DNA of 44,541 nt from positions 1 through 44,541 of the forward strand of contig RPRQ01000040.1 of NCBI GenBank assembly GCA_003818205.1, in the 5' to 3' direction. Under the pieces are notes generated by a model that searched no databases, was not told the DNA's origin, and was given only the letters and a program-made list of their open reading frames with translations. Origin of the DNA: Bacteroidales bacterium (lineage in GTDB: Bacteria; Bacteroidota; Bacteroidia; Bacteroidales; Tenuifilaceae). Below are positions 3,291 to 41,567 of this stretch, piece after piece; the stretch's first letter is position 1, and every line of letters starts with the position of its first letter. Made by a program: the position numbers and the translations under genes.

Positions 3291-3869
3291 ATGAAGAAAA
3301 AAATATTTGTATTCCTTTTTAATGGTTACTCCGATTGGGAGATAGCATACCTTGCGCCCGAGATTAAAAAGAGTGATGTGTACGAACTTGTCTATTTCTC
3401 GAAAGACGGTAAACCTGTACAATCCATGGGTGGTTTATGTGTTTTACCTGAAATGTCCTTTCCCGAAATTAATATAAATCATGTTTACATGCTGATTCTT
3501 CCCGGTGGAACCGCATGGGAAATTGGAGAAAACAGGGAAATAGACCTATTCATAAAAACCCTGTTCGCCGAAAAAAGAACAATTGCCGCTATCTGTGGAG
3601 CTACGATATATCTAGGGCAACAAGGGGTTTTAAACAATCTAAAACATACAAGCATCGATTTAAACTACCTAAAGGGAGTTGCACCGAACTATTCAGGAGA
3701 AAAGAGTTATATCAATTCCCTTGCCGTTACCGATGAAAATTTAATTACAGCTAACGGTGTTGCCCCAATCGAATTTGCGAGAGAAATCTTTACAAAGTTG
3801 AAACTGATGAAAGATGATGAAATTGAGAAATGGTTCCAACTCTTTAAAAATGGGCTTTGGAGTGAATGA
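3291..3869 (+). CDS. DJ-1/PfpI family protein (class I glutamine amidotransferase fold)
   Basis: A 192-residue cytoplasmic protein with the DJ-1/PfpI fold. It starts with the typical strand KKKIFVFLFNGYSDWEIAYL, has LILPGGTAWE and the nucleophile elbow AAICGAT with C102 as the presumed reactive cysteine. Closest in style to the YoaZ/YdeA-like subgroup, members of which act in oxidative or carbonyl stress, or remain uncharacterised. It lies 35 bases after the GyrI-like gene in the same direction, consistent with a small stress-response operon under the WYL regulator. The substrate cannot be stated. Confidence 0.88.
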   Translation: MKKKIFVFLFNGYSDWEIAYLAPEIKKSDVYELVYFSKDGKPVQSMGGLCVLPEMSFPEININHVYMLILPGGTAWEIGENREIDLFIKTLFAEKRTIAAICGATIYLGQQGVLNNLKHTSIDLNYLKGVAPNYSGEKSYINSLAVTDENLITANGVAPIEFAREIFTKLKLMKDDEIEKWFQLFKNGLWSE

Positions 3870-3968
3870 AGCAAAACAAATTATCCATTATAGAAAATAA
3901 ACTAAATATTGTTTATTACCGAAAACTTTGATGTTTAACTTTAGGCATCAATTCAAAAAAAGAAAACA

Positions 3969-4643
3969 ATGGGATATCATATAGATTTAAAATCAATAAC
4001 CATTGATGAGTATAAGAGAAAACTTGAGAGTTCTTTTTTAATACCAAGTAGAATGGTTTTGAAAGATAAAATAGATGAGCGTTTCAACCACTTCAATTCA
4101 ATTGGCATAAAAAACGTTCACGAGCTGCAGCTGATGTTAAAGAGTAAGAGTAAGCAAATTGAACTTGCAAAAAACCCCCTTTTCTCTGAGGAATATCTAA
4201 CTATCCTCTTTAGAGAGCTGAATAGTATTCAGGCAAAACCTAATAAGCTGAAGGAATTCATTGGTATATCAAATGATACTATCAATAAACTTGAGAAAGA
4301 GGGAATAAAGGATACCCTTAAACTATTTGATAGAGTGCGAACTGTAGAAAGTCGAAAGGAGTTAGCCAATAAATTAGGGATTAATGAAAATGAAATCCTT
4401 GAACTAACGAAGCTTTCCGACTTATCACGAATTAAATGGGTGGGAGCAACTTTTGCTAGAGTTCTGTATGATGCCGGATTTGAAACGCTCGAAAAAGTAT
4501 CCAAGGCCAATTATGAAGACCTTCATAAGTCCATTGTAAAACTAAATAAGGAGAAAAATCTTTACAAGGGACATATCGGACTAAATGACATGAAAATATG
4601 CGTATTAGCAGCGAATGATGTGCCCTTGGAGATAGAATATTAA
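3969..4643 (+). CDS. DUF4332 domain protein (helix-hairpin-helix-like)
   Basis: A 224-residue cytoplasmic, highly charged, mostly helical protein. Two regions resemble tandem helix-hairpin-helix modules: residues about 40-140 (KNVHELQLMLKSKSKQIELA and LEKEGIKDTLKLFDRV) and about 150-215 (LSRIKWVGATFARVLYDAGF followed by LEKVSKANYEDLHKSI). This repeated 'gap-in-a-helical-hairpin' pattern is the DUF4332 signature, thought to bind DNA or RNA non-specifically. No enzymatic motif is seen. It follows the DJ-1 gene by 99 bases and is followed directly by a large hairpin repeat. Confidence 0.8.
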   Translation: MGYHIDLKSITIDEYKRKLESSFLIPSRMVLKDKIDERFNHFNSIGIKNVHELQLMLKSKSKQIELAKNPLFSEEYLTILFRELNSIQAKPNKLKEFIGISNDTINKLEKEGIKDTLKLFDRVRTVESRKELANKLGINENEILELTKLSDLSRIKWVGATFARVLYDAGFETLEKVSKANYEDLHKSIVKLNKEKNLYKGHIGLNDMKICVLAANDVPLEIEY

Positions 4644-4644
4644 G

Positions 4645-4715
4645 AAGTGCCTAGAATGCCTAAAGTAATTTAAACACTCTAGGCACTCTAAGTACTTTAG
4701 GCACTCTAGGCACTT
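4645..4715. repeat. Post-stop hairpin repeat, copy 2 (AAGTGCCT family)
   Basis: Begins one base after the stop of the DUF4332 gene. The two 23-base arms (4645-4667 and 4693-4715) are inverted copies with a single mismatch, giving a very stable stem with a 25-base loop. The left arm begins AAGTGCCTAGA and the right arm ends TCTAGGCACTT, followed by TTAAC. It is the same family as 1689-1764, in the same position relative to a stop codon. Confidence 0.88.
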
Positions 4716-4754
4716 TTAACTTAAAATTAATAACATTCTTAAATAATTATAACA

Positions 4755-5105
4755 ATGAAAGAGATTGTAAATGACACCAAACTAATCGCCTACTGCGGAT
4801 TATACTGCGGTTCGTGTTCTAAATTTTTAAAAGAATCGTGCCCTGGTTGTGCAGGAAACGAGAAGGCCACATGGTGCAAGGTTCGCTCATGCAATATGGA
4901 GCATGGTTATGTTAGCTGCGCCGATTGTAAGGAGTATTCTAATGCCATGGATTGTAAAAAATTTAATAATTTCATGTCAAAATTATTTGGATTCGTATTT
5001 AAATCCGATAGAAATGCTTGCGTTAACATGATAAGAAGTAATGGCTACGAAAACTTTGCTAGCTATATGGCAAGCAATAAACTTGTGACGATTAAAAAGC
5101 AATAA
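4755..5105 (+). CDS. DUF3795 cysteine-rich protein
   Basis: A 116-residue protein with the DUF3795 pattern: IAYCGLYCGSCSKF, then CPGCAG, WCKVRSCNMEHGYVSCADC and MDCKKF. About ten cysteines in the first 70 residues suggest a bound metal or Fe-S cluster; this is inferred from spacing, and the family has no established function. It is the first gene of a tight trio, with five bases to the GNAT-YoaP gene, which is followed by a second DUF3795 gene. No signal peptide or membrane segment is seen. Confidence 0.87.
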   Translation: MKEIVNDTKLIAYCGLYCGSCSKFLKESCPGCAGNEKATWCKVRSCNMEHGYVSCADCKEYSNAMDCKKFNNFMSKLFGFVFKSDRNACVNMIRSNGYENFASYMASNKLVTIKKQ

Positions 5106-5110
5106 AAAGG

Positions 5111-5860
5111 ATGGAAAAAATAATCACGTTAACCGAACAAAACATATCGGAAGAGCACATCTGCTGCGCGATATCTGATAAGAAATGTAAAGCAGGATAC
5201 GAAGCAAAGAAGGATTGGATTAGACACCAATTTGCCGATGGGTTTATCTTCAAAAAACTTGATGTTAGAGGTAAAGTATTCATTGAGTATGTACCAACTG
5301 AAAATTCATGGAGTCCGATTATTGCTGAAGGTTATATGATGATAAACTGTTTTTGGGTATCGGGGCAATATCAGGGTAATGGAAATGGAAAGCGCCTTTA
5401 CGAGGAGTGTCTAAATGACTCAAAGGATAAAAATGGAATTGTAGTTATTACCGGAAACAAGAAACTCCCCTTTTTAACCGATAAAAAATTCTTTCAAAAA
5501 CAAGGATTTGAGCTCTGCGATACAGCTGAGCCCTATTTTGAACTTTGGTTTAAAAAATTCAAGAACGATGCGCCAATTCCGAAATTTAAAGATATTGCAA
5601 AGCAAGGAATATGTAATAATAAAGAAGGGCTGACTGTTTATTACTCTAACGGTTGCCCTTTTACTGAATACTATGTAAACACCGAACTTGTTAATGTTGC
5701 AAAGAAAAAAGGTTATAAACTTAGCGTTGTAAAGATTGAAAGTAAAGAACAAGCCCAAAATCACTTTGTCCCGTTCACGATTTTCAGCATCTTTAAGGAT
5801 GGTAAGTTTGTTACGCACCATATCCTGAACGAGAAATATTTTGAGAAGTTTGTTGAGTAG
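5111..5860 (+). CDS. GNAT acetyltransferase with C-terminal YoaP domain
   Basis: A 249-residue protein. The N-terminal half resembles a GNAT fold: the acetyl-CoA loop reads WVSGQYQGNGNGKRLYEECL (about residues 78-97), followed by a distal strand and FFQKQGFELCDTAEPYFELW. The C-terminal half (about 170-249) matches the YoaP domain, with a thioredoxin-like start LTVYYSNGCPFTEYYV in which a single Cys replaces a CxxC pair. The YoaP family of Bacillus is of unknown function. Flanked on both sides by DUF3795 genes with gaps of five bases and one base, so the three proteins are very probably co-translated and may work on the same substrate. Confidence 0.88.
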   Translation: MEKIITLTEQNISEEHICCAISDKKCKAGYEAKKDWIRHQFADGFIFKKLDVRGKVFIEYVPTENSWSPIIAEGYMMINCFWVSGQYQGNGNGKRLYEECLNDSKDKNGIVVITGNKKLPFLTDKKFFQKQGFELCDTAEPYFELWFKKFKNDAPIPKFKDIAKQGICNNKEGLTVYYSNGCPFTEYYVNTELVNVAKKKGYKLSVVKIESKEQAQNHFVPFTIFSIFKDGKFVTHHILNEKYFEKFVE

Positions 5861-29548: not shown

Positions 29549-29856
29549 TTAAAGTGAATGTACCATTTGATGAAGTTTTTCTTTGGCGATTAACTTCAAC
29601 CCTCGATGAAGCATTAACGTCTCTTTGAAGTGAGTAAAATAGTTTTCCAATCTGTTTGTAGTATGAGGAATAGCTGGGTCATCGAGGTCGTTGAACATAC
29701 TTGGGATGGCATTAATAATCAAAGAAGTTGCCAGATGTAGGTTTTTATGGGTAAACCGTTCTCTTCCTGTTTCTTCATTAACCGTTTTCTCGTTGATGTA
29801 ATGGTGGTTGGCATCATAAATCCACAACTTTTCAACTTGATTCAAGACCTTTAACA
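29549..29856 (-). pseudogene. Transposase C-terminal remnant
   Basis: About 100 codons with no proper start (only TTG codons) that begin right at the tRNA terminator. The text IPHTTNRLENYFTHFKETLMLHRGL is typical of the end of a DDE transposase: the conserved N-x-L-E with the last catalytic Glu and the HRGL motif. The first two catalytic Asp regions are missing, so it cannot be active. Preceding residues VEKLWIYDANHHYINEKTVN and ERFTHKNLHLATSLIIN belong to the same domain. Exact insertion-sequence family not assigned. Loss of the 5' part next to a tRNA suggests deletion after insertion. Confidence 0.8.
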
Positions 29857-29886
29857 AAAAAACCCTTGCGTTTGCAAGGGTTTTTG
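29856..29886. terminator. Intrinsic terminator after tRNA-Val
   Basis: AACCCTTGC (29861-29869), loop GTTT, GCAAGGGTT (29874-29882), with A-runs left and T-runs right, so it works in both directions. On the minus strand it lies four bases past the tRNA 3' end. Confidence 0.9.
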
Positions 29887-30218: not shown

Positions 30219-30254
30219 AAAAGGTAAAGCCTCATTTCTAGGACTTTACCTTTT
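30219..30254 (-). terminator. Intrinsic terminator of the transporter operon
   Basis: AAAAGGTAAAG (30219-30229) pairs with CTTTACCTTTT (30244-30254); minus-strand reading ends in a T-rich tail TTTTTACATT. It is 31 bases past the stop of the last gene of the minus-strand array starting at 36416. Confidence 0.88.
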
Positions 30255-30284: not shown

Positions 30285-30749
30285 TTAGAATCCCGTTTTG
30301 GGGACTTTCTGCCAGAGTATTAGCACTCCCACACAAGCTCTGTCCTGCCCAATATCCTTAAACTCTGTTTTGGCAGCAAGAAGGGTTATTTCCACAATAA
30401 GCCTTCTTGTCTTTTCAATCGTAAACCCAATGGATTCTAAGTAATCATCATCCTTATTGTCATAGAAAACTTCTTGGGTAAGAGGATCGATTAAACGTAT
30501 GTGAATGGGGTAGAAGTTTGCTTCGGAGCAAATAATAAATTTATAATCCTTCTCGCCAAAAAGGGTTACGCTAAAGTTATTGGGAATATTAGCCTGAAGT
30601 AGCGCATTTTTCGATTGGCCATAAACATTCATCACCTCTCTATTCATCAGCAATAAACAATTGCCCATTCTATTATAATCCCTACAGGGTTGAGCGAAGG
30701 CAATATTTACGCTAATTGCTAATGTTATTGTTACTAGTAGCCACTTCAT
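30285..30749 (-). CDS. Secreted protein of unknown function
   Basis: A 154-residue protein with signal peptide (MKWLLVTITLAISVNIAFAQ). The mature part starts CRDYNRMGNC, then a strand-rich central part (NFSVTLFGEKDYKFIICSE, PIHIRLIDPLTQEVFYDN) and IEKTRRLIVEITLLAAKTE. Four cysteines, possibly disulfide-bonded. The pattern 'gel/solvent-exposed beta fold with IRLIDP...VFYDN' is seen in small Bacteroidota envelope proteins, but no named family is recognised. It starts three bases after the upstream lipoprotein gene, so they are translationally linked. Confidence 0.75.
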   Translation of the reverse strand: MKWLLVTITLAISVNIAFAQPCRDYNRMGNCLLLMNREVMNVYGQSKNALLQANIPNNFSVTLFGEKDYKFIICSEANFYPIHIRLIDPLTQEVFYDNKDDDYLESIGFTIEKTRRLIVEITLLAAKTEFKDIGQDRACVGVLILWQKVPKTGF

Positions 30750-30752
30750 CGC

Positions 30753-31649
30753 TTAGTATTGTTGATTTACAATTTTTGTACGAATATTAATTACTTTAGC
30801 TTTCAACAGGCTAAAGTTTTCATCGCTTGAGGATTTCTTACTATCGTCCGAAATTTTTATTTTCATTCCGCTTGAGGTCATCTTTTTAGTTGCCGAGGAG
30901 GTGTTATTTCTCTCTACCTTGCCTTTATGAAGAATATCTCGAACCTCAGTTAAGTCCATTAACAAGGGCTTTAGCGATTTTTCATCGTTACAAAAGACTA
31001 AGAAACTGCTAAAGAAATTCTCGTAAAACTCACCGATATCGTAAACCGATGATACTAAACGCGGTTGCTTCTGAGCGTCAGTAATTGAATTGGCCGTTAA
31101 ATAGAGCGCCTCAACGATTGATCCAATACCAATGATAGAGAAAAGCATATTATTATCGGTTTGGTCGAGGGAGTTGAAAACATCCGATGAAAGCTCAATG
31201 GAAATCTCTTTGAGGGAGTCGAGGTTAGAGTAATTATCCTCCATCCTTTTAAAGAAACTCTCCTTGAAGAAATGTTCAATGCTTAATTTTAGCGAAAGTT
31301 GACGAAGTGTTGTTAGATATTTGAGCGATTGGGTGTTCTTGTCGAAAACGCTTAAATAGTAGAAATCGCAAAAATACATGCCAAAGTATAGCGCTTGATT
31401 GCGAAATAAATTGATCTCCTCAATATTCTCAAGCGGATTAACTAGAAATTCTTTGTAGGTATAGCCTTGATCTTTGGCAAAGCTCATGAGCTCCTGGGGT
31501 GATGGTAGGAGGTACTCTATTCTTTCTCTGTAAATCGAATCCTTTTGTTGAGCTAAAAGACTGTCCTCTTTCTTTTTGGATTCATTTACGCACCCTAAAA
31601 GACAAGAAGCAAGAATAAGCGTTATCAGTAAATTAGTTTTTCGCCTCAT
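30753..31649 (-). CDS. Lipoprotein of unknown function
   Basis: The ATG at 31649 is preferred over a TTG three codons earlier. The 298-residue product has a lipoprotein signal ending in SCLLGC. The mature part is largely helical (EYLLPSPQELMSFAKDQGYT, IEEINLFRNQALYFGMYFCDFYYLSVF) with an alpha-alpha pattern through residue 230, then a Lys/Ser-rich low-complexity tail (KKMTSSGMKIKISDDSKKSSSD). No family recognised. It lies between the ABC transporter gene (132 bases upstream) and the secreted protein gene (three bases downstream) and may be an accessory of the transporter. Confidence 0.78.
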   Translation of the reverse strand: MRRKTNLLITLILASCLLGCVNESKKKEDSLLAQQKDSIYRERIEYLLPSPQELMSFAKDQGYTYKEFLVNPLENIEEINLFRNQALYFGMYFCDFYYLSVFDKNTQSLKYLTTLRQLSLKLSIEHFFKESFFKRMEDNYSNLDSLKEISIELSSDVFNSLDQTDNNMLFSIIGIGSIVEALYLTANSITDAQKQPRLVSSVYDIGEFYENFFSSFLVFCNDEKSLKPLLMDLTEVRDILHKGKVERNNTSSATKKMTSSGMKIKISDDSKKSSSDENFSLLKAKVINIRTKIVNQQY

Positions 31650-31781
31650 TTTTCTCAATTTTCATTAACAAAACCAATATTTATTTTAACTCTAGGAGAT
31701 TTGTTGTAATACAATTTATGATCAAATAGTTGTTGCAATATATAAAAAAAAGTAATACTATTTTTCAAAAGAACAGAATTA

Positions 31782-34700
31782 TCAGCTATTAAATGTAATG
31801 CGATTTTTGAAATATTGTTGATAAAACCGTTGATACCGTTTTGTGAATTTGGTGAAAAGTTCAAATACAAGAATAATATATAGAATAATAATCATAAACC
31901 ATATCGATATCAAGTTAAACCAATAGGTTTCAATAGTATAGTTCCCTATTCGTTTGAATGAAGCAAAAAAGTGCGATCGACCGATTCGCGATTGGGCTAG
32001 CCTGAAAATTGGATCCGATTTGATGTAAATCTCCGATTCAACCTGAATAACCTGATCGGTTACTGACCGATTCTGAACTAAATCGCTAACAGCTTTATTA
32101 ACTGACTTTTGCTTTAAAGCGGTAACACCTTCTTCGCCGCCATAAGTTAATGAAAGGTTCTCTAAGATTAAATCTTTTCGAAAACGTATTTTGTCGAGTG
32201 CTGCTGAAGCCTGCTTGCGCTTCTTCTCAAGATTGGCTTTAGCCATTACAATCAGTTTATCATCCTGATTTGGGGCTTGATTGCTAATTTCAAGTATAGC
32301 TAATCCATTCTTTATCAGTTTTATATCTTTTCTTCGTAAGGTTTCATCGGTTTTAACGTTGTAATCCTCGATTGCCTCGGTAACCATAGGGATAATGTAG
32401 AAAAGTTGAATCCGATTTACGCTCTCCTGGGTGTTTACATCGGTGAAGTTTTTCTGATACTCGTTATCGTTAAACTGCCTAACCGTAAGCGCTTCAAAGG
32501 CCCACCGCGATGCCATTACCTCCCCTATAATGGGTACTTTATCCTGATCGCCTACCTTGTAGTTCAGCTGATCAAACTTTACGACTACCCCGCTAAAAAG
32601 AATTTGAGGAATTAGCAGGAAGGGAACAATCACGTAAATTGCAGGAACTGATTTTAGCGATGCGGAAACGATCAACCCCATTAAATTTGCTAAAAAGGAT
32701 AAAGAGAACAGGATTAACCAGAAGCTAAGCGTGAAATCGGGAATTTTAAAGAGTAAAACCCCGAAAATGGCCAAAAAGAATGATTGGAATGCGCTAAGGA
32801 TGAAAAAGAAGATAACCTTTGAGTTATAGTAGCTAAACATGCTTAGGTTAAAGAAGGCCTCTCGCTTCAGCATCCTATTATCCCTGATTATACCTTCGGC
32901 ACTGACGATTAAACCTATAAACAGGGCTGAAATAATTGCCATGAAGAAGTATGCCGGCACATTTGAATTTTCGAATAGTATATACTCGTAGGTACCACTT
33001 TTTGTTGTGGCGAATTGCTTTGTGAAGAAAGCCACAAGAAAACCAATGATTGGAGCAATCGATGCGGATAGGATGATAAATTCCCAATCGCCCAACTTAG
33101 TGAGAACCGTTCGATGAAAGAAGAGCTTAAGCTGTTTGAACGATGATGGTTTCTGGAACTTACGCTCAGGAATCGGACCATTGCGCTGAGTATTTCGCTT
33201 GCTCTTCAGATCGTCTAAATAGAATTGATGCCACTGGGTAGGGCTAATCTTTCGTTCGTTAGTGTTCTCACCGTACTGATTTACCTGCTTTTCATCTACT
33301 ATCTCAAAGATTAGGTCGGGGTTAATGTGTCCGCAATAATCGCATGCAATTTCCTTTTTATCGACTCTATCCCCTTTGTTCTTGAAGTAAAGAATCGATT
33401 CAATAGGGTTTCCGAAGAATATAGGGTATCCCCCTTTATCCAGGATAAGAATTGAATCGAATAGCTTAAATATTTCCGATGAGGGTTGATGAATGTTAAT
33501 AAAAAGGAGAGTCCCTTGTAGCGACAGCTCCTTGAGTAGGTTCATTACATTGTCGGAATCCAAAGAGGATAGACCTGAGGTTGGCTCATCAACGAAAAGT
33601 ATTTCGGGCTTACGAATAACCTCCATCGCGATATTCAACCGTTTTCGTTGTCCGCCGCTGATTAACTTTTTAAGGGGCGATCCGACCTTTAACTCCTTAA
33701 TGCTATATAAATCGAACTCTAAAAGGGTTGATTCAACCCTTTTGTGTATCTCGTCATCGGTTAAATTGCCTAATGTAAGTTTTGATGAGAATAGGATATT
33801 TTGATAAACCGTTAGCTCTTCGATAAGCGAATCTTCCTGTGGAACAATCCCAATTATACTTTTAAGATTTTCGTTTTCACTGTCAAGTGGCAAACCGTTA
33901 ATCTCGATTCGTCCATTACAAGGCTTATAGTTACCACAAAGAACGTTGATAAGTGTTGATTTGCCGGCACCGCTCCCTCCCATTATTCCAATCAGCTCGC
34001 CCGAACGTGCATCGAAAGAGAGCTGTTGGATTGCGGTAACCTCATTCGGAAATTTATATTCAATCTCATGCGCCTGATAGTGTATATCGTGAATTGCCTC
34101 ATCGTACGAATAGGCTCTAAGGATATCGCCATAGTAGATTGGCTTTAGATTTTTTCCTGATATGAAAGAGCCATTCTTCAAGGTATAGACGCGTCGGGAG
34201 AAGATAACCTGTTTATTAATCTCAAGGGTAAGCGACCCTCTGTATCTGAATAGAAGTAGATTAGAACCCGATAGATGGAGGAAAATTAGGTAACCGTTTA
34301 GGTGGTCATTTTGAAGAAATTTTACCTCCTCAATGCTAGGATCCTGATTTCCAACAATTAACAGCTGCTTCTTCTGGGGTATTTTATAGATTTCGCCAAA
34401 AATGTAACGGATCAGGTTGAGAAATTCTGTTTTATTAATCTTTAGCTCAAGGGCTATCGTGTTCACAAAAACCTTAAATGGTTTTTCGATGCTAAATATA
34501 TTGTGGAATGAGATTTCAGAGTAAAGAATAAAATCGAGAAGGTTGATAAGAATTTGGTACTTCTCCCGAAGGTTACACTCTTGGTTTATTGATCTGCAAA
34601 CATAGGTGAGCTGGTTTCTGAAGTCGGAGTTCTCCTTAAATAGCGCAGCATACTTTATATATACCTCTATTTTCTCATTGGCAACCTTCTTCCCGAATGA

Positions 34701-34814
34701 TTTTTTCAGGTAGTTTTCGATGTATTTTCTTGTTAACAGCTGTTTTTCATCCCTTTTCAGATTCTGAATGATAGCAAGAAACTGAAGCAGGGCGTTAAGC
34801 ATTGATTCATTCAT
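31782..34814 (-). CDS. ABCG-type ABC transporter with TerB-like N-terminus
   Basis: A 1010-residue half-transporter. Residues about 1-140 are helical and resemble a TerB-like domain (LQFLAIIQNLKRDEKQLLTRKYI...FGKKVANEKIEVYI). A beta-rich FHA-like stretch (about 150-235) follows. The ATPase (about 250-470) has Walker A GGSGAGKST (near 280), signature ISGGQRKRL and Walker B ILFVDEPTSGL, as in the White/PDR (ABCG) group. A Cys motif CDYCGHINP precedes the membrane part with six helices; a ~215-residue loop with a coiled-coil (KANLEKKRKQASAALDK) lies outside between helices five and six. The gene overlaps the upstream degenerate kinase gene by eight bases. Substrate unknown. Confidence 0.9.
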   Translation of the reverse strand: MNESMLNALLQFLAIIQNLKRDEKQLLTRKYIENYLKKSFGKKVANEKIEVYIKYAALFKENSDFRNQLTYVCRSINQECNLREKYQILINLLDFILYSEISFHNIFSIEKPFKVFVNTIALELKINKTEFLNLIRYIFGEIYKIPQKKQLLIVGNQDPSIEEVKFLQNDHLNGYLIFLHLSGSNLLLFRYRGSLTLEINKQVIFSRRVYTLKNGSFISGKNLKPIYYGDILRAYSYDEAIHDIHYQAHEIEYKFPNEVTAIQQLSFDARSGELIGIMGGSGAGKSTLINVLCGNYKPCNGRIEINGLPLDSENENLKSIIGIVPQEDSLIEELTVYQNILFSSKLTLGNLTDDEIHKRVESTLLEFDLYSIKELKVGSPLKKLISGGQRKRLNIAMEVIRKPEILFVDEPTSGLSSLDSDNVMNLLKELSLQGTLLFINIHQPSSEIFKLFDSILILDKGGYPIFFGNPIESILYFKNKGDRVDKKEIACDYCGHINPDLIFEIVDEKQVNQYGENTNERKISPTQWHQFYLDDLKSKRNTQRNGPIPERKFQKPSSFKQLKLFFHRTVLTKLGDWEFIILSASIAPIIGFLVAFFTKQFATTKSGTYEYILFENSNVPAYFFMAIISALFIGLIVSAEGIIRDNRMLKREAFFNLSMFSYYNSKVIFFFILSAFQSFFLAIFGVLLFKIPDFTLSFWLILFSLSFLANLMGLIVSASLKSVPAIYVIVPFLLIPQILFSGVVVKFDQLNYKVGDQDKVPIIGEVMASRWAFEALTVRQFNDNEYQKNFTDVNTQESVNRIQLFYIIPMVTEAIEDYNVKTDETLRRKDIKLIKNGLAILEISNQAPNQDDKLIVMAKANLEKKRKQASAALDKIRFRKDLILENLSLTYGGEEGVTALKQKSVNKAVSDLVQNRSVTDQVIQVESEIYIKSDPIFRLAQSRIGRSHFFASFKRIGNYTIETYWFNLISIWFMIIILYIILVFELFTKFTKRYQRFYQQYFKNRITFNS

Positions 34815-35928
34815 GTTCGCTGGTTTTGAAGGAAATGCCTATAGTAACACCTGTTTCCTTGGTTATATCAACCCAATAGAAGCCATCGTGGACATTAAGT
34901 ACCATTTTGGCTAAGGATAAGCCTATCTCCTGATCAATTGAAGTTGAGTTAAATATTTCGAGTATATCCTGCTTATTAAAAGAAATTCTATTTGTCGTTA
35001 TTTTACAATCAACGGTGTCTTTCCCAAGGCTAAAATCAATAAATATTTCGCCATTCTCCTTGGTAAGGTTGATGGTTTTGTCGAGTATTGCTGTAAAGCT
35101 ATGGAATAGTAAATCTTTATCACCATATATACTTGCACTGGTATGGGTTGGGTTGACGGTAAGTTTAATCTTCTCAAGCTCTAAGTACTCTGTGAGTTCC
35201 AACGCAGAAAATCTAAATATTTCATCGAGGTTAACCAACTTTTTTTTAATGGGGTAACTCCCAAGTTTTAAATCAGAGGAGAGCGTTGCCTTGAAGGTGA
35301 ACTCAACCATCCGATTAAGCGTAGTATCGATTATGCTAAAAAAGGGTATTAATTCGGGGTCGTCAATTTTTTCTTTGATAAGCTGAATGGGGCCACCCAC
35401 ATTGTTAAGAAGCGTTCTTATCTCATAGGTAATATTTCGGATAAAAACAGCTTTCTGCTGATTAATTTCGATGTTGTCCTGTAAATCAACCTTTTGAATA
35501 GTTTTATTTGGCGGATTCTCCAGCTTAGGCTGAGCATCAACTATTGCTCTGCGCAGATTAGAATCTTTTACACTTAACACTAAATCGCCAATTAACAGGG
35601 AGTCGGGAGGCGTTATAGAGGTATTAATAATCGATTCGATTATAATCTCTTGACTCGCTTTTAGCCTAAAGAAAAAGGTAGGAATGCTATAGTCCTTGAA
35701 TTGCTTTTTCACCAAACTTAGATCAGGCTGTTTATTCTCAGCTAAAAATTTGATATTAACGAGTATTGCATCGAATCTCTTTTGCTTAATAGGTTCAACC
35801 TGGGTTAAATAGTTATCTGAATACAAAAATTCACATTGAGGTAATTCCTTTAGAGCATCCTTATAATTGAGGGTATTGCTTTCGGAATCGATTATTAACA
35901 CTATGAAATTTTTATCGTTAACGTTCAT
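34807..35928 (-). CDS. Degenerate receiver - histidine kinase protein (pseudokinase)
   Basis: A 373-residue cytoplasmic protein. Residues about 8-128 have the receiver fold (FIVLIIDSE, FDAILVNIKF) but N58 stands where the phospho-acceptor Asp should be. At 155-215 the dimerisation helix reads AVFIRNITYEIRTLLNNVGG: Y168 (codon TAT, 35425-35427) replaces the phospho-acceptor His. The ATPase-like region (about 235-370) lacks a normal N-box and G1 (AILDKTINLT instead of an Asn) and keeps only a G2-like EIGLSLAKMVLNVHDG. It therefore cannot be a normal kinase. It is translationally coupled to the ABCG gene by an eight-base overlap and probably works as a scaffold or allosteric regulator. Confidence 0.88.
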   Translation of the reverse strand: MNVNDKNFIVLIIDSESNTLNYKDALKELPQCEFLYSDNYLTQVEPIKQKRFDAILVNIKFLAENKQPDLSLVKKQFKDYSIPTFFFRLKASQEIIIESIINTSITPPDSLLIGDLVLSVKDSNLRRAIVDAQPKLENPPNKTIQKVDLQDNIEINQQKAVFIRNITYEIRTLLNNVGGPIQLIKEKIDDPELIPFFSIIDTTLNRMVEFTFKATLSSDLKLGSYPIKKKLVNLDEIFRFSALELTEYLELEKIKLTVNPTHTSASIYGDKDLLFHSFTAILDKTINLTKENGEIFIDFSLGKDTVDCKITTNRISFNKQDILEIFNSTSIDQEIGLSLAKMVLNVHDGFYWVDITKETGVTIGISFKTSEHE

Positions 35929-36026
35929 GGCATACTACATTAAAAGCGTTATTTTCAACAAATTTTTCGTAAAGACAACCACTAAGGCTAGAACAATAGA
36001 TGAACAGAACCATAATTTATCCCCAG

Positions 36027-36416
36027 CTATTCAAATCCTAATAGATGGTTCATTCTTTGCATTAGAAAGTTCTTGTTATACGGTTTTGTGATAAAGGCTG
36101 AGCATCCTGCCGCCATTGCAACCTCCTCATCGTTTGGCATGGCGAATGCTGTAACGGCTATAATGGGTACAACCTTATCGGTTACTCGAATAATCCGAGT
36201 TGCATCTAACCCATCCATCCCGGGCATTCGAATATCCATTAAGATAATATCTGGTTTTTCGTTATTATTAACCTCTATCGCCTCGTCGCCATTATTCGCA
36301 TTAAAAATTGTTATCCCTGTTGTTGACAGGAAGAGTTTAACCATCATGAGGTTAACGCGATCGTCCTCAACTATCAATACTTTTTTTCCTATCCAACTGT
36401 AATTTATAGTAGCCAT
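36027..36416 (-). CDS. Stand-alone response regulator (receiver only)
   Basis: The ATG at 36416 gives a 129-residue receiver; the longer open frame adds 50 residues of non-conserved text. The acidic pocket VEDD (18-19), phospho-acceptor D61 in IILMDIRMPGMDG, Thr in VPIIAVTAFA and Lys in AFITKPYN are all intact. There is no output domain. It sits 98 bases upstream of the degenerate receiver-kinase gene in the same direction and divergent to the hybrid histidine kinase, whose C-terminal receiver it resembles. It may be phosphorylated by that kinase. Confidence 0.94.
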   Translation of the reverse strand: MATINYSWIGKKVLIVEDDRVNLMMVKLFLSTTGITIFNANNGDEAIEVNNNEKPDIILMDIRMPGMDGLDATRIIRVTDKVVPIIAVTAFAMPNDEEVAMAAGCSAFITKPYNKNFLMQRMNHLLGFE

Positions 36417-36650
36417 AACAATGAAATTATTCAGTATGTTAAATAACCAACGATGCCGTAATTTAAGTATATTTTTTTGAAAATAGTTATTGTGTATAAT
36501 ATTAAGGGAGAGAAAAAGAATAAACCCGATAACAAATTTGGTGTGGTCAAACATTGAATAGCGCAAATAATACCTCTTATTTCAACGTTATCTTATCTTA
36601 AAATAATTATTGTATTTATATGTTTACCTGCTAGTTAACTTTTGGTTTTT

Positions 36651-36666
36651 TTATAGTTCGCTATAA
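36651..36666. repeat. TTCG-loop hairpin in the divergent gap
   Basis: TTATAG, tetraloop TTCG, CTATAA. A short but perfect AT hairpin upstream of both the receiver gene and the hybrid kinase gene. Confidence 0.5.
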
Positions 36667-36717
36667 AGAAAATCATCCCAAGAATATGGAGAATGGCAGG
36701 TTTTTATTGAAAAAAGA

Positions 36718-36737
36718 GTGATATATATCACTAGTGA
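36718..36737. promoter_or_regulatory. Overlapping palindromes, CRP/FNR-like operator
   Basis: GTGATATATATCAC (36718-36731) is a perfect 14-bp palindrome with the GTGA-N6-TCAC layout of CRP/FNR-family sites, overlapping TCACTAGTGA (36728-36737), also perfect. It lies midway in the 513-base gap between the divergent receiver gene and hybrid kinase gene. The rest of the gap has no gene. Confidence 0.55.
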
Positions 36738-36822
36738 TTTAAAACAACAGGGGTACAAGTAAATACAAAACCATAATCGATAAATTGCTGTTGCGAAATT
36801 GGCAAAAGAAACAGAAAATTCT

Positions 36823-36830
36823 TACATTTA
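36823..36830 (+). promoter_or_regulatory. Possible -7 element for the hybrid kinase gene
   Basis: TACATTTA differs from TAnnTTTG only in the last base; TTGG 20 bases upstream (36800 region) could be the -33 part. The leader would be about 95 bases. Confidence 0.35.
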
Positions 36831-36929
36831 CATAAACATGCCAATAGTCAATGAATAGTCTTAAAATGAGATATATAGCATACGGTGTTAAGGTCGGTAA
36901 ATAATTGTAATACATATAATTCATTAAAA

Positions 36930-39900
36930 ATGAGGTTGCTATTCAGCTTCGAGAACTCATTAAAAATTCAAGGATTACTAATCTTTCTGATTGGGATGCT
37001 AGGCTTTTTGGGATGGGCAAGCAACGCTCTTCTCCTTGCAAGCTATAGCGATAATTTTATTCCCATGGCTCCCGATACCTCTTTTATTTTTCTGATTTTT
37101 GGATTAGTGCTATTTACAAATTCTTACAAGTCGCATATCCCCATTATAAGAACAGGGACAATAATTACTATAGCTTTTCTTACCTTTTATGGTTTTTTTA
37201 AGTCCGTTGAATACTTTGCAAATAGCGATTTAACATTTGAATACTACCTATCACCTGTTACCGAGAAATGGGGTGCATTCCCATTAAAAAGGATGTCGCC
37301 GCTAACAGGTTTTCTGTTCTTCATGGCGGGTATTGCATTCTTAGTAAAAGCCAAGTTCGGCGAGAAGAAGAGCACAAATGGATTAATTGGAATTCTTGGT
37401 GCTTCGGTTACGTTCTCGGGGTTTGCCGTAATATTGGGATATCTGTTTCAAACCCCTTTGCTTTATAAAAGCGGAGTTATCCCTTTGGCTTTACCTACGG
37501 CAATTTGCTTTCTTATATTAGGCGTTTCCATTGTTATCTATAGCGGTAGGAAAAACTTTATTGTAAGACAATTTATTGGCAGAACACCCTATAACATACT
37601 TATACGAAGCATTATACCCATCCTTTTCTTTGCCATCTTGTTTCAAGGGTTAATCCTAAAATACTTTAACGACTCCAAAACGCTGAACTTTGCCCTCTTT
37701 TCGGCCTTGCTGACGCTGCTATTGATAACCCTAATCGGTTTTGTTATTATTCAGGTCTCAAAATCAGTTTTCAAGAACGCAATATTAGCCGAAAATAAGC
37801 GTAAACAGGCCGAAATAGCTGTGCAATCCAAGGATGAGCTATTAAAGCTAACCGGTGAGTCGGCAAATGTGGGTGGGTGGGAGTACGATGTTCAAACGCA
37901 GCAGATTACTATCTCCTCGGAGATTGCCCGAATTTTAGGGTTGGATACGAAGCAAAATCTAAAAGTTTTTGAAGACTCATTAATGCAGGATTCTCGAAAA
38001 ATATATGATAATGCTATCGAATTAATCATTAAAAAAAGGATTGCCTCGGATTTCGAAGTTGATATTATCACGAATGAAGGGCAGCAAAGGAATTTAAGGA
38101 TAATCGGAATTCCTGTAGTTGAAGATTCTAGTGTTGAGAAAATTAGAGGAATCATACATGATATTACCGGTGAAAAGAATTACGACAAGAAGCAGCTGCT
38201 CATAGCAAATATCCTAGCCTTACTAAATCGTCCTATTGAATGGGGTTTACTGGTTGACGATATCCTATACGGTATTAAGGAATACCTAAAAAATGAGTCA
38301 ATTGTCTTACAGGTACAGGGTAAAAACGACAACCCTTTTAATCATTCAATTGGGTTTCCTGACAAGTATGACATTTCAAAGAATACCCTTTGCCCAAGAC
38401 GAGATAATTGTGATATAGTAAACGAACAGGAATGCAATTCGTTTTACGAATGTTTTTGCGATGTTGTGATTAAAGGGAATTCTAAAACCGCTAATCATAA
38501 TTTCACAGCATTAAGCAGCTTTTGGTTTAATACATTGGATTCGCTCAACGCATATGTGCCAAAATCCGACTTACCTCACCATTTTCGGAATCATTGTAAT
38601 TTAAATGCCTACGAATCCGTTGCATTAATCCCTTTGCATTCCGATGATGAGATTATCGGTTTTCTGCAGCTGAACGATAAGCGGCCGAACTTCTTTAATA
38701 CCGACATTATTGGGTTCATGGAAGAGCTAAGCTCATTAATTGGCATTGCCTTTAAGCGAATTCAATCCGAAAACAAGATAAAGGAGAATGAGAAAAAGTT
38801 TAGGGCAATGTTCGAATCGGCTGCTGTTGGGGTTGCATTAATCGACACGAACAATTGGAAGCCCATCGAAATCAATCAGAAGTATTGCGATATTCTAGGG
38901 TATTCGATGGATGAAATGCTTAGCATAAGCCCAATGGAAATAACTCACGAGAATGACATTGAAGAAAACCTAAAACAAAGGAACCGAATAGTTAACGGTG
39001 AAATAAGCGAATACTCAATAGTTAAACGCTATTACCATAAGAATGGGAGCATTGTATGGGTCAACCTATTCGTATCGCTGATGGCGGACAGCGAACGTTT
39101 CCAAAATTACCATATCGTAATAGTTGAAGATATTACGGCACAAAGAATTACTGAAAAGGCTTTAACGGATAGCGAAGAGCATTTTCGCTCAATTGCTCAA
39201 ACTGCAGGTGATGCAATCATAAGCATGAACGAGGAGGGTAAAATTTTTACATGGAATAATGCTGCATCAACCATTTTTGGGCATAGCGAATCGGAGGTCC
39301 TTGGGGTTGATTTCAAAAATTTAATTATACCAATCGAGTATAGTAACATTATTAGTAATTGCTTTCAACGTGTAAATCAAGAACCCATCGAAAATTCAAG
39401 CGGGAATACAATTGAAATTAAAGCCTTTAGAAAGGATGGTGTAGTAATACCCGTTGAGCTATCAATATCATCCTACAAAAAAGACAATAAGTGGCATGCA
39501 ACGGCTATTCTAAGAGATATTTCAAAAAGGAAAGAAGCGGAAAAGGAGATTAAGGAAAGGGTTAAAGAGATACAATGCCTGCAAAATATTACACGAATAA
39601 TCGATAAGGATAGCCTAACGTTTGCCAAATTCTTTAATAAAGTAGCGAACCTAATCCCAACAGGTTTTCAATACCCCGAAAACACTGAATGTAGGATTGT
39701 GCTTAAGGATCATACATTTCAAACGTCAACCTTCGTTGAAAGTAATCTCAGGTTAAGCTCAGAGATTGTCAACAAAAACAAACAGCTTGGTTACATTGAG
39801 GTATTCCTTCACTACGAAGCGAATGAACCTTCCTTCACCCCATTCTTAACGGAAGAGAAGGAGCTTATAACCACCATCTCAAAAATTCTTAGCGAGTTCA

Positions 39901-41567
39901 TCGAACGAAAGCGCAAAGAACAAATTCAGAAAATAATTTATAACAGTTCCATCGCTGTTGATACATCGGAAAGCTTAGCCGATTTGATTGACTATATCAA
40001 AAATCAGATCGGGCTGCTCATCGACACAACAAACTTTTTTGCTGCGTTCTACGATGAGGAGACCGATACCATAACGTTGCCATACCATAACGATCAGAAA
40101 GATATTATTAAACATTTTCCTGCCGGGAGAACGCTAACCAAACACGTGATAAGAACAAAAAAACCCTTACTGGTAAACAAAAAGCAAATCGAAGAGCTTG
40201 AAAATGCCGGAACAATAGATTCTTTTGGTAATAAAGCGGCGGTTTGGTTGGGTGTTCCGCTAATTGTTAAAGGTAAAATAACAGGAATATTTGCAGTACA
40301 AAGCCACGAAGATAGGAATGCATACGATAACGACGATTTAGAAATGCTTGAATTCATCTCCCGTCAGGTAAGCATCCTGATAGAACGAAAAAAGGTGGAG
40401 CAGGATATGAAAATAGCTTTCGAAAAGGCGAAGGAATCAGACCGATTAAAATCAACATTCCTCGCCACCATGTCGCACGAGCTGAGAACGCCATTGAATG
40501 CGGTTATCGGATTCTCTGATATGATGAAAAATGAAATAGATAACACCAAGATACCCGAATATGCAGGTATCATTAATACCTGCGGATTAAATTTGCTTGA
40601 AATCGTTGAAGATATATTCGATATAACCCTGCTCGAAAGCGGTGAAGTAAAAGTTAGCTTGGAGGATTACAGAATTAGCAATCTTCCGCATGATATAAAC
40701 GATTCAATAGTGTTAGAGCAGGAAAAGCTGAACAAACAACACCTCAGTATAACTTTTATACCCCCCCAAGAAATCGACAATCTAATTCTACATACCGATA
40801 AAACGAAGCTGAAACAAATACTGCTCAACCTTATCAAAAATGCGCTCAAATTTACTTTTAAAGGTTATATCGAGTACGGCCTCAGTATTGATGAAATTGA
40901 CGATAACAGCGTAATAAAATTTTACGTTAAGGATACAGGCATAGGAATTAGCGAGGAGCACATTGAGATAATATTCGAAAACTTTAGGCAGGTTGATGAT
41001 TCCAACACAAGGCTATTCGGCGGAACAGGGCTAGGTCTTTCAGTAGCAAGACGATATACTGAAATGCTAGGTGGAAAAATTTGGGTAGAATCAAACTTTG
41101 GCAAAGGCTCTACCTTCTACTTCACTCTTCCAAACTATGAGCTACTAGCTGTCGATGAAAATATAAAATATAAAGATACCCTATCAGCTATGCTCAATTT
41201 TAAGGGTAAAACAATACTTATAGCAGAGGATGAGACCTCTAACTATGAGCTGTTGGTTGTCTATCTTGAACACCTAGAAGTGAAAATCTTATGGGCTCGT
41301 AACGGTGAGGAAGCCATTACCATTTGCAATACCATTGGCGGTATTGATTTAGTACTTATGGATATAAAAATGCCAAAGATAAATGGATTCGATGCCACCA
41401 TTAGCATTAAAAAGACGCATCCAAACCTTCCCATCATAGCGCAAACTGCCTTCGTCCTCCATGGCGATGATAGAAAAGCGCTAGAAGCTGGATGTGATGA
41501 TTACATCAGTAAGCCTATAAAGAGGCGAGAACTGTACGGCCTGCTATCGAAATACCTTCAAGAATGA
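36930..41567 (+). CDS. Membrane hybrid histidine kinase with PAS and GAF domains
   Basis: The ATG at 36930 is preferred over a GTG at 36885. The 1545-residue protein has about eight membrane helices (1-290), a PAS (about 298-415), a GAF-like domain (425-605) with a Cys-rich insert CPRRDNCDIVNEQEC (from 488) and HHFRNHC, two PAS domains (620-740, 750-870), a further sensor-like segment (880-995), a GAF (996-1160), HisKA with H1183 in MSHELRTPLNAV, an ATPase (N-box NLIKNALKF, G1 DTGIGI, G2 GGTGLGL) and a C-terminal receiver with D1478 in LVLMDIKMP. All catalytic residues are present. It is divergent from the receiver / pseudokinase / ABCG array. Confidence 0.94.
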   Translation: MRLLFSFENSLKIQGLLIFLIGMLGFLGWASNALLLASYSDNFIPMAPDTSFIFLIFGLVLFTNSYKSHIPIIRTGTIITIAFLTFYGFFKSVEYFANSDLTFEYYLSPVTEKWGAFPLKRMSPLTGFLFFMAGIAFLVKAKFGEKKSTNGLIGILGASVTFSGFAVILGYLFQTPLLYKSGVIPLALPTAICFLILGVSIVIYSGRKNFIVRQFIGRTPYNILIRSIIPILFFAILFQGLILKYFNDSKTLNFALFSALLTLLLITLIGFVIIQVSKSVFKNAILAENKRKQAEIAVQSKDELLKLTGESANVGGWEYDVQTQQITISSEIARILGLDTKQNLKVFEDSLMQDSRKIYDNAIELIIKKRIASDFEVDIITNEGQQRNLRIIGIPVVEDSSVEKIRGIIHDITGEKNYDKKQLLIANILALLNRPIEWGLLVDDILYGIKEYLKNESIVLQVQGKNDNPFNHSIGFPDKYDISKNTLCPRRDNCDIVNEQECNSFYECFCDVVIKGNSKTANHNFTALSSFWFNTLDSLNAYVPKSDLPHHFRNHCNLNAYESVALIPLHSDDEIIGFLQLNDKRPNFFNTDIIGFMEELSSLIGIAFKRIQSENKIKENEKKFRAMFESAAVGVALIDTNNWKPIEINQKYCDILGYSMDEMLSISPMEITHENDIEENLKQRNRIVNGEISEYSIVKRYYHKNGSIVWVNLFVSLMADSERFQNYHIVIVEDITAQRITEKALTDSEEHFRSIAQTAGDAIISMNEEGKIFTWNNAASTIFGHSESEVLGVDFKNLIIPIEYSNIISNCFQRVNQEPIENSSGNTIEIKAFRKDGVVIPVELSISSYKKDNKWHATAILRDISKRKEAEKEIKERVKEIQCLQNITRIIDKDSLTFAKFFNKVANLIPTGFQYPENTECRIVLKDHTFQTSTFVESNLRLSSEIVNKNKQLGYIEVFLHYEANEPSFTPFLTEEKELITTISKILSEFIERKRKEQIQKIIYNSSIAVDTSESLADLIDYIKNQIGLLIDTTNFFAAFYDEETDTITLPYHNDQKDIIKHFPAGRTLTKHVIRTKKPLLVNKKQIEELENAGTIDSFGNKAAVWLGVPLIVKGKITGIFAVQSHEDRNAYDNDDLEMLEFISRQVSILIERKKVEQDMKIAFEKAKESDRLKSTFLATMSHELRTPLNAVIGFSDMMKNEIDNTKIPEYAGIINTCGLNLLEIVEDIFDITLLESGEVKVSLEDYRISNLPHDINDSIVLEQEKLNKQHLSITFIPPQEIDNLILHTDKTKLKQILLNLIKNALKFTFKGYIEYGLSIDEIDDNSVIKFYVKDTGIGISEEHIEIIFENFRQVDDSNTRLFGGTGLGLSVARRYTEMLGGKIWVESNFGKGSTFYFTLPNYELLAVDENIKYKDTLSAMLNFKGKTILIAEDETSNYELLVVYLEHLEVKILWARNGEEAITICNTIGGIDLVLMDIKMPKINGFDATISIKKTHPNLPIIAQTAFVLHGDDRKALEAGCDDYISKPIKRRELYGLLSKYLQE

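Follow-up and report, generated by a model that had tools for sequence, protein, structure and literature searches.

A pseudokinase gene directly upstream of an ABCG transporter gene in Bacteroidales suggests a pump switched by protein phosphorylation

The window analyzed here is a stretch of 44,541 nucleotides (contig RPRQ01000040.1, positions 1 to 44,541) from the genome of an uncultured Bacteroidales bacterium. Its minus strand carries, from position 36416 down to 30285, the genes for a free single-domain receiver, a kinase-like protein (the pseudokinase), an ABCG half-transporter, a lipoprotein (LIPO) and a small secreted protein (SEC), and a gene for a hybrid histidine kinase diverges from them. 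Our analysis shows that the kinase-like gene, the ABCG gene and the genes for the two envelope proteins stay together in one clade of ABCG transporters. A pump gene directly behind that of a predicted dead kinase, together with a receiver that appears phosphorylatable, suggests that the pump is switched by protein phosphorylation. We therefore lean, by a little more than half, toward a phosphorylation-gated ABCG transporter, in which a kinase, a phosphorylated receiver and a pseudokinase resembling DivL would act in sequence to gate transport. The features of the locus are listed below by window position.

36027..36416, minus strand: free single-domain receiver, 129 residues, ATG start, Asp61 intact (Pfam Response_reg)
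34807..35928, minus strand: pseudokinase, 373 residues, composed of a dead receiver, a pseudo-DHp and a degenerate catalytic and ATP-binding (CA) domain
35554..35928, minus strand: degenerate receiver of the pseudokinase, residues 1-125, Asp to Asn and Lys to Pro (alignment)
35239..35463, minus strand: pseudo-DHp of the pseudokinase, residues 156-230, H-box TYEIRTLLN, His to Tyr
34810..35238, minus strand: CA remnant of the pseudokinase, residues 231-373, N-box Asn and G1 lost
31782..34814, minus strand: ABCG half-transporter, 1010 residues, motifs of the nucleotide-binding domain (NBD) intact
34401..34814, minus strand: TerB-like helical N-terminal domain of the transporter, residues 1-138 (model)
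34107..34373, minus strand: small beta-rich domain of the transporter, residues 148-236, between the TerB-like domain and the NBD (secondary structure of the model)
31965..32462, minus strand: large, mainly helical domain of the transporter, residues 785-950, preceding the last membrane helix (model)
30753..31649, minus strand: LIPO, lipoprotein, 298 residues from ATG, lipobox Cys20, all-alpha
30285..30749, minus strand: SEC, small secreted protein, 154 residues (signal peptide by eye)
30219..30254, minus strand: terminator-like hairpin and T-run (fold z-score)
36930..41567, plus strand: divergent hybrid histidine kinase, 1545 residues, ATG start

An earlier note on this DNA had described five minus-strand genes with tight junctions that end at one terminator, and the coordinates, strands, gaps and overlap all check out. 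The pseudokinase and ABCG frames overlap by 8 bases and LIPO is 3 bases from SEC, while gaps of 98 and 132 bases follow the free receiver gene and the ABCG gene, respectively. All six genes recur with the same layout, hybrid kinase included, in each of the three further genus members with a genome more than 90% complete (L037, L038 and L039; the L037 stretch is identical to the public record JANYLA010000078.1), and a fifth genome of the genus, 67% complete (G001), gave no pseudokinase match. At E<=1e-20 the pseudokinase is matched in 6 of 27 genomes of the family, four belonging to the genus and two to other genera (L101 and L102); G018 and G023, from the same family, have more divergent pseudokinases, which this threshold misses. 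In L101 and L102 the genes for a receiver (129 to 130 residues), a pseudokinase (223 to 224 residues), ABCG, LIPO and SEC follow in the same order on one strand, and several kinase and receiver genes precede this five-gene core.

A phylogeny of 138 ABCG sequences (FastTree, midpoint root; frames of <=940 or >=1100 residues excluded here and in the earlier tree) groups all transporters whose genes directly follow a kinase-like gene in a single 24-member clade, with a support of 1.0. Within this clade the kinase-like gene is directly upstream in 22 members; the remaining two are L227, which is cut by a contig edge, and L230, which has none. LIPO lies at most three genes away in all 24 and SEC in 23 of the 24. 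The outcome was the same in an earlier 127-sequence tree (13 of 13 tips, 12 of them distinct and one a duplicate); L137, the same contig stretch as L037, is included in that tree and excluded from the 138-sequence tree and from all counts of 22. The spacing between pseudokinase and ABCG genes has a median of 7 bases and is <=20 bases in 17 of 22 loci as computed, the value of 175 for L228 being an artefact of a divergent N-terminus, since the called frames overlap. ABCG identity drops to about 40% within the clade, whose deeper branching order has weak support. Conservation of the neighbors, set beforehand as the test that could refute the system, thus came out in its favor, and a one-off mix of genes is ruled out by a layout conserved in the genus and in one ABCG clade.

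The pseudokinase and its receiver

The pseudokinase of the window has Tyr at the DHp phospho-acceptor position and has lost the N-box Asn and G1. Its CA remnant gives a weak HATPase_c match (0.0012, under the Pfam curated cut-off), and Pfam finds no PAS domain in the protein. Among the 22 ABCG-linked pseudokinases, the acceptor residue is Asn in 6, Tyr, Phe or Gln in 4 each, Thr, Glu or Asp in one each and His in one; His is thus absent in 21 of 22, as is a complete ATP site. The N-box Asn is retained in 10 and the G1 motif DxGxG in 5 of the 22, and only L040 has all ATP-site motifs. Aligned control kinases from the same loci, taken from a list of loci that we chose, retain His, Asn and G1 in 14 of 14 cases; outside this list, His is retained in the hybrid kinases of L037 to L039 and in the receiver-histidine kinase proteins L101 3583 and L102 13525. 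Judged by these residues, the kinase-like proteins of the ABCG branch are catalytically dead, and the earlier description of the window protein as a phosphorylation-dead receiver-kinase was right: its receiver has Asn for Asp and Pro for Lys, its DHp has Tyr for His, and the ATP site is lost. A second kinase-like protein with Tyr for His, this one with a C-terminal receiver, is encoded on the opposite strand near the ABCG operon of L139 (6315-7724), outside the control list.

Loss of the catalytic residues goes along with purifying selection. A comparison of L038 with L039 gives a ratio of nonsynonymous to synonymous substitution rates (dN/dS) of 0.127 over the whole pseudokinase. The pseudo-DHp, 97% identical between the two, has the lowest value, 0.02, followed by the CA remnant with 0.09 and the dead receiver with 0.17; the linker has 0.35. 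The pseudo-DHp, the site that meets the receiver in a kinase, is the part of the protein best guarded by selection.

The free receiver of the window matches Response_reg at 1.2e-28, keeps D18, D19, D61 and K111 unchanged in all four rows of the genus and has DivK as its top PDB sequence match (3.7e-25). By alignment, 13 of the 22 pseudokinases carry an intact N-terminal receiver of their own (Asp, acidic residues and Lys). The other nine comprise the four of the genus, in which Asp is replaced by Asn and Lys by Pro, L225 with Gly for Asp, and four without a receiver. A free intact receiver is encoded in the same-strand cluster in 8 of these 9 loci, directly upstream of the pseudokinase in 6 (the four loci of the genus, including the window, plus L101 and L102) and downstream of SEC in L228 and L229, where the gene for a 936-residue hybrid kinase follows at once. 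At the ninth locus, L225, the contig ends 574 bases past SEC; the stretch of its sister, L227, breaks off on the opposite side and includes a receiver gene beyond SEC. Of the 13 loci with an intact fused receiver, only L040 has an additional free one directly upstream. Fusion of two proteins in some relatives and their separation in others is a classical sign of joint action, so receiver and pseudokinase are likely to act together. A Fisher test on the free receivers (p 0.007) ignores shared ancestry and predates L228 and L229, and we do not rely on it. In two family members, L237 (5949-7277) and L238 (1587-2885), a gene for 442 and 432 residues, respectively, sits between SEC and the free receiver; the L237 product has no Pfam match.

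The transporter and its envelope partners

Pfam confirms the receiver, HisKA/HATPase, ABC and ABC2 domains in the window proteins. In the transporter, ABC_tran (6.6e-32) precedes ABC2_membrane (2.5e-16) in one chain, so that the NBD comes before the transmembrane domain (TMD). The Walker A, signature, Walker B and H-loop motifs are intact (GGSGAGKST, SGGQRKR, LFVDEP and NIHQPSS), and the key NBD residues are invariant across 43 aligned rows. Profile matches in the PDB are to ABCG1, ABCG2, ABCG5 and ABCG8, and the top Foldseek matches are ABCG5, ABCG16, ABCG1 and ABCG2 (E 1.8e-22). An AlphaFold2 model with a mean pLDDT of 85.3 has helices at 3-138, strands at 151-227, then the NBD, the TMD and a helical domain at about 785-950, which, by inference from the ABCG fold, is probably extracytoplasmic.

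The earlier note called the transporter TerB-ABCG. TerB (PF05099) matches the N-terminus in 11 of the 19 ABCG rows scanned (best 4.8e-8), and the model of the window copy is all-helical there; the window row is not among the 11, and its N-terminus matches no Pfam family at E<=1. A profile of the N-terminal region found no match among PDB sequences, and the beta-rich domain has no Pfam name. Between NBD and TMD, a CxxCG motif (residues 491-495) is invariant in 43 of 43 aligned relatives and possibly marks a metal or redox site. The genome of the window encodes six ABCG proteins of this family and six LIPO proteins. The ABCG gene at L041 has no adjoining LIPO gene and the LIPO gene at L116 no ABCG gene, and their products may pair up in trans. 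This genome's second receiver-linked ABCG locus (L040, 11434-12401) has two tandem SEC genes and, downstream, a gene for a receiver-PAS-PP2C protein.

LIPO begins with a predicted signal peptide and lipobox (LLGC at residues 17-20), and Cys20 is invariant in 20 of 20 and in 35 of 35 aligned rows; a TTG at 31658 is also open as a start. Its AlphaFold2 model (mean pLDDT 78.6) is all-alpha. A fold search of the PDB gave no match at E<=0.001 (best E 1.7), a sequence-profile search gave helical-bundle noise only, and neither LIPO nor SEC has a Pfam or NCBIfam match at E<=0.01. Naming the two from weaker Pfam matches was dropped, as these were scattered and inconsistent. Among 149 genomes of the order, LIPO occurs in 61 (E<=1e-6) and ABCG in 62 (E<=1e-150): the two occur together in 60 genomes, 2 have ABCG but no LIPO, 1 has LIPO but no ABCG and 86 have neither, a count which assumes that both searches drew the same 149 genomes (those listed agree, the listing of non-matching ones being incomplete). 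Because of this co-occurrence, LIPO and ABCG very probably form a functional pair; we further guess that the outer domain of the transporter is where LIPO and SEC dock.

Of 40 fetched loci, 38 chosen by LIPO match and two by pseudokinase match, 11 have LIPO-SEC but no full-length ABCG gene in the retrieved stretch, including L126, where the contig end truncates the ABCG gene. Pairs of LIPO and SEC that lack this ABCG lie near uvrA-like and serine-biosynthesis-like genes at G000:C35/L116 7597-9056, L100, L106, L109, L122 and L127; we discarded these neighbors as a clue to the cargo, as they are housekeeping genes by eye. L233 has a tandem LIPO-SEC-LIPO-SEC arrangement and no ABCG gene in the fetched stretch. 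Of 344 genomes of the order, 71 match the SEC profile at 1e-12, a figure that includes cross-matches to other SEC branches; of 395 genomes drawn from the phylum, 1 matches, that of the window itself. Judged by SEC, the branch of the window looks limited to the order.

In other ABCG branches, a second type of switch takes the place of receiver and pseudokinase. Directly before ABCG-LIPO-SEC, the Sia-linked loci encode a PP2C phosphatase with PAS/GAF domains, a DUF6272 (SiaB-type) protein and SiaC; the exact order PP2C-SiaB-SiaC-ABCG-LIPO-SEC occurs in 13 of the 40 loci, and LIPO-SEC-ABCG next to SiaC-SiaB in 5. The operon of the window has no PP2C, DUF6272 (SiaB) or SiaC gene, and its relative L055 has all three. 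A set selected by ABCG alone comprises 79 named loci (the best 80 of 563 matches, less one duplicate): 35 have LIPO no more than three genes away, 17 have Sia proteins at that distance and 5 have a kinase-like gene directly upstream. Named isolates in which LIPO adjoins an ABCG of this family include Marinifilum caeruleilacunae (L175), Ancylomarina sp. (L186) and Labilibacter sediminis (L206), all of them outside the pseudokinase branch. The Sia-linked branches strengthen the regulatory interpretation, since the switch that stands there before the same three genes is an unrelated one. The gene arrangement singled out by the earlier note is real and conserved; what the note missed is that the ABCG-LIPO family is large and that this arrangement belongs to one of its branches, others being linked to SiaABC, while many members of the family show no signaling neighbor.

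Proposed mechanism and alternatives

We hypothesize that the free receiver obtains its phosphoryl group from the hybrid kinase or from a different kinase and would then bind the pseudo-DHp of the pseudokinase. The latter, unable to phosphorylate or dephosphorylate the receiver, would read its phosphorylation state, as DivL does with DivK, and relay it to the ABCG dimer, perhaps at its TerB-like N-terminus, so that transport would be switched; LIPO and SEC would be envelope partners of the pump. By this analogy, the pseudokinase most likely reads the state of the receiver and acts on ABCG, within a few bases of which it is encoded. The cargo is perhaps a lipid or lipid-linked envelope component, to judge from other ABCG proteins alone. 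The wiring proposed earlier, from kinase through free receiver and pseudokinase to transporter, gains from the receivers that are fused or free in the same cluster and from the hybrid kinase gene directly after the free receiver in two genomes; we infer every physical contact, the contact sites, the direction of the signal and the cargo, and with them binding, phosphotransfer and gating. More tentatively, and with somewhat less than even confidence, we propose a large Bacteroidales family of ABCG-LIPO-SEC machines that can be gated by interchangeable phospho-switches, either SiaABC or a receiver with a dead histidine kinase, in which the dead kinase would be a response-regulator output aimed at an ABC transporter.

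The same gene linkage would be expected if the signal ran in reverse: the transporter would be the sensor, and the pseudokinase would inform the receiver or the hybrid kinase of flux or substrate load on ABCG and LIPO. Bce-type transporters signal to their kinases in this direction, the lipoprotein and the large domain on the far side of the membrane could have a sensory role, and a receiver-binding pseudokinase could compete with the kinase. We nevertheless consider reverse flow unlikely, because the module of the window has no DNA-binding regulator (Pfam) as a target for the signal and because the Sia-linked PP2C has PAS/GAF sensors of its own, which points to an input on the side of the switch. 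The pseudokinase might instead damp the hybrid kinase by forming DHp heterodimers, in the way RetS damps GacS, the transporter being merely co-transcribed. DHp domains dimerize, the DHp is the best conserved part of the pseudokinase and RetS is among its weak PDB matches (E 0.02), but the gene that keeps its place directly upstream of ABCG, mostly within 20 bases, is that of the pseudokinase, whereas kinase genes vary in kind, place and presence across the clade; we regard damping as still less probable than reverse flow.

Operon linkage can also reflect co-expression alone: receiver and pseudokinase, which have no DNA-binding output (Pfam), would then regulate something else and share a transcript with the transport genes. 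This reading, which we rate a shade below damping, has to account for a link kept over a clade in which the transporters have diverged so far and for an unrelated phospho-switch in the same place in other ABCG branches. That the pseudokinase is a decaying remnant without function would fit the loss of catalytic motifs and of the N-terminal receiver in the clade of the window; we give this next to no credence, as the frame is open in all 22 loci and a dN/dS of 0.13 overall and 0.02 in the DHp speaks against a decayed leftover.

Several observations weigh against the phosphorylation-gated transporter that we favor. The 22 pseudokinases are one clade and not independent events, and L230, inside that clade, does without an adjoining kinase-like gene. 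The nine loci without a working fused receiver form, with L227, one ten-member subclade (support 1.0), and the loss is therefore best read as one event. L225 (5175-6230), alone of the 22, keeps His, with a degenerate receiver and ATP site. No kinase besides the pseudokinase was found in the stretches searched near L225, L227, L230, L138, L140 and L217, several of which reach contig ends. At L138 the gene directly before the receiver-pseudokinase gene, on the same strand (3338-5623), encodes a TonB-dependent receptor and not a kinase; this is possibly a hint to signal or cargo, and at L217 the corresponding place is taken by an unlabelled gene that likewise encodes 761 residues. DivL matches the pseudokinase weakly (E 0.04), and we take it for this reason as an analogue rather than a family member. 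Moreover, in 34 of the 79 loci selected by ABCG, none of LIPO, SEC, Sia and kinase-like genes was detected up to three genes away (in 30 of the 79 a contig end is that close), so that signaling linkage marks some ABCG branches and not the whole family.

We found no description of a receiver-pseudokinase-ABCG system in the open part of PubMed Central. The Rv1747-PknF system of Mycobacterium tuberculosis likewise joins an ABC transporter with regulatory domains to a modulating kinase encoded with it, through phosphorylation-dependent contacts, but with FHA domains and a Ser/Thr kinase. It is not known to include a receiver or pseudo-histidine kinase. In DivL of Caulobacter, Tyr replaces His; the protein does not add a phosphoryl group to DivK or remove one from it, and senses phosphorylated DivK by its kinase fold (PMC4211667). 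The DivL-DivK-CckA system shares with the window a Tyr-for-His kinase fold with conserved DHp and a DivK-like single-domain receiver, but DivL as there described has multiple PAS domains and acts on the kinase CckA (PMC4211667), whereas our pseudokinase has no PAS domain, has lost the ATP site, has its own receiver in many relatives and adjoins an ABC transporter. In Pseudomonas, SiaC binds and activates SiaD, and DUF1987 proteins are suggested to commonly modulate adjacent proteins (PMC8457831). As in SiaABC(D) of Pseudomonas aeruginosa, where SiaABC are encoded with the effector bound by SiaC, PP2C, DUF6272 and SiaC genes precede ABCG-LIPO-SEC in related Bacteroidales loci; the known effector is a diguanylate cyclase (PMC8457831), and the branch of the window has receiver and pseudokinase instead. 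The single-domain receiver EpsW of Myxococcus xanthus activates a membrane envelope enzyme, EpsZ, post-translationally, by a mechanism that, as described there, involves neither a pseudokinase adaptor nor a transporter (PMC12802240).

If our proposal is true, it would mean that two-component phosphorylation can also control an ABC transporter directly, at the post-translational level. The clade would also preserve stages in the conversion of a histidine kinase into an adaptor, from a fused receiver and a partly kept ATP site to a receiver in trans and a dead ATP site, with the DHp kept throughout. The Bacteroidales DUF6272/SiaC pairs and two unnamed envelope protein families would gain a functional context. 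Receiver, pseudokinase and ABCG N-terminus are small enough for ordinary binding tests.

Boundaries of the operon

The hybrid kinase, which counts 1560 residues if started from a GTG at 36885, has a hydrophobic N-terminus followed by PAS, GAF, HisKA (with His), HATPase and REC domains. Matches to a Bacteroidota-type promoter motif number 3 in the window, with 3.1 expected. The internal gaps of 98 and 132 bases do not fold above shuffles (z +2.4 and +0.5), which fits one transcript without proving it. The hairpin at 30219-30254 is missing from the output of a simple terminator scan, but a 66-nucleotide stretch there folds at -22.2 kcal/mol (z -5.7). Just past it, a short minus-strand open reading frame (29549-29857) resembles a transposase remnant by eye.

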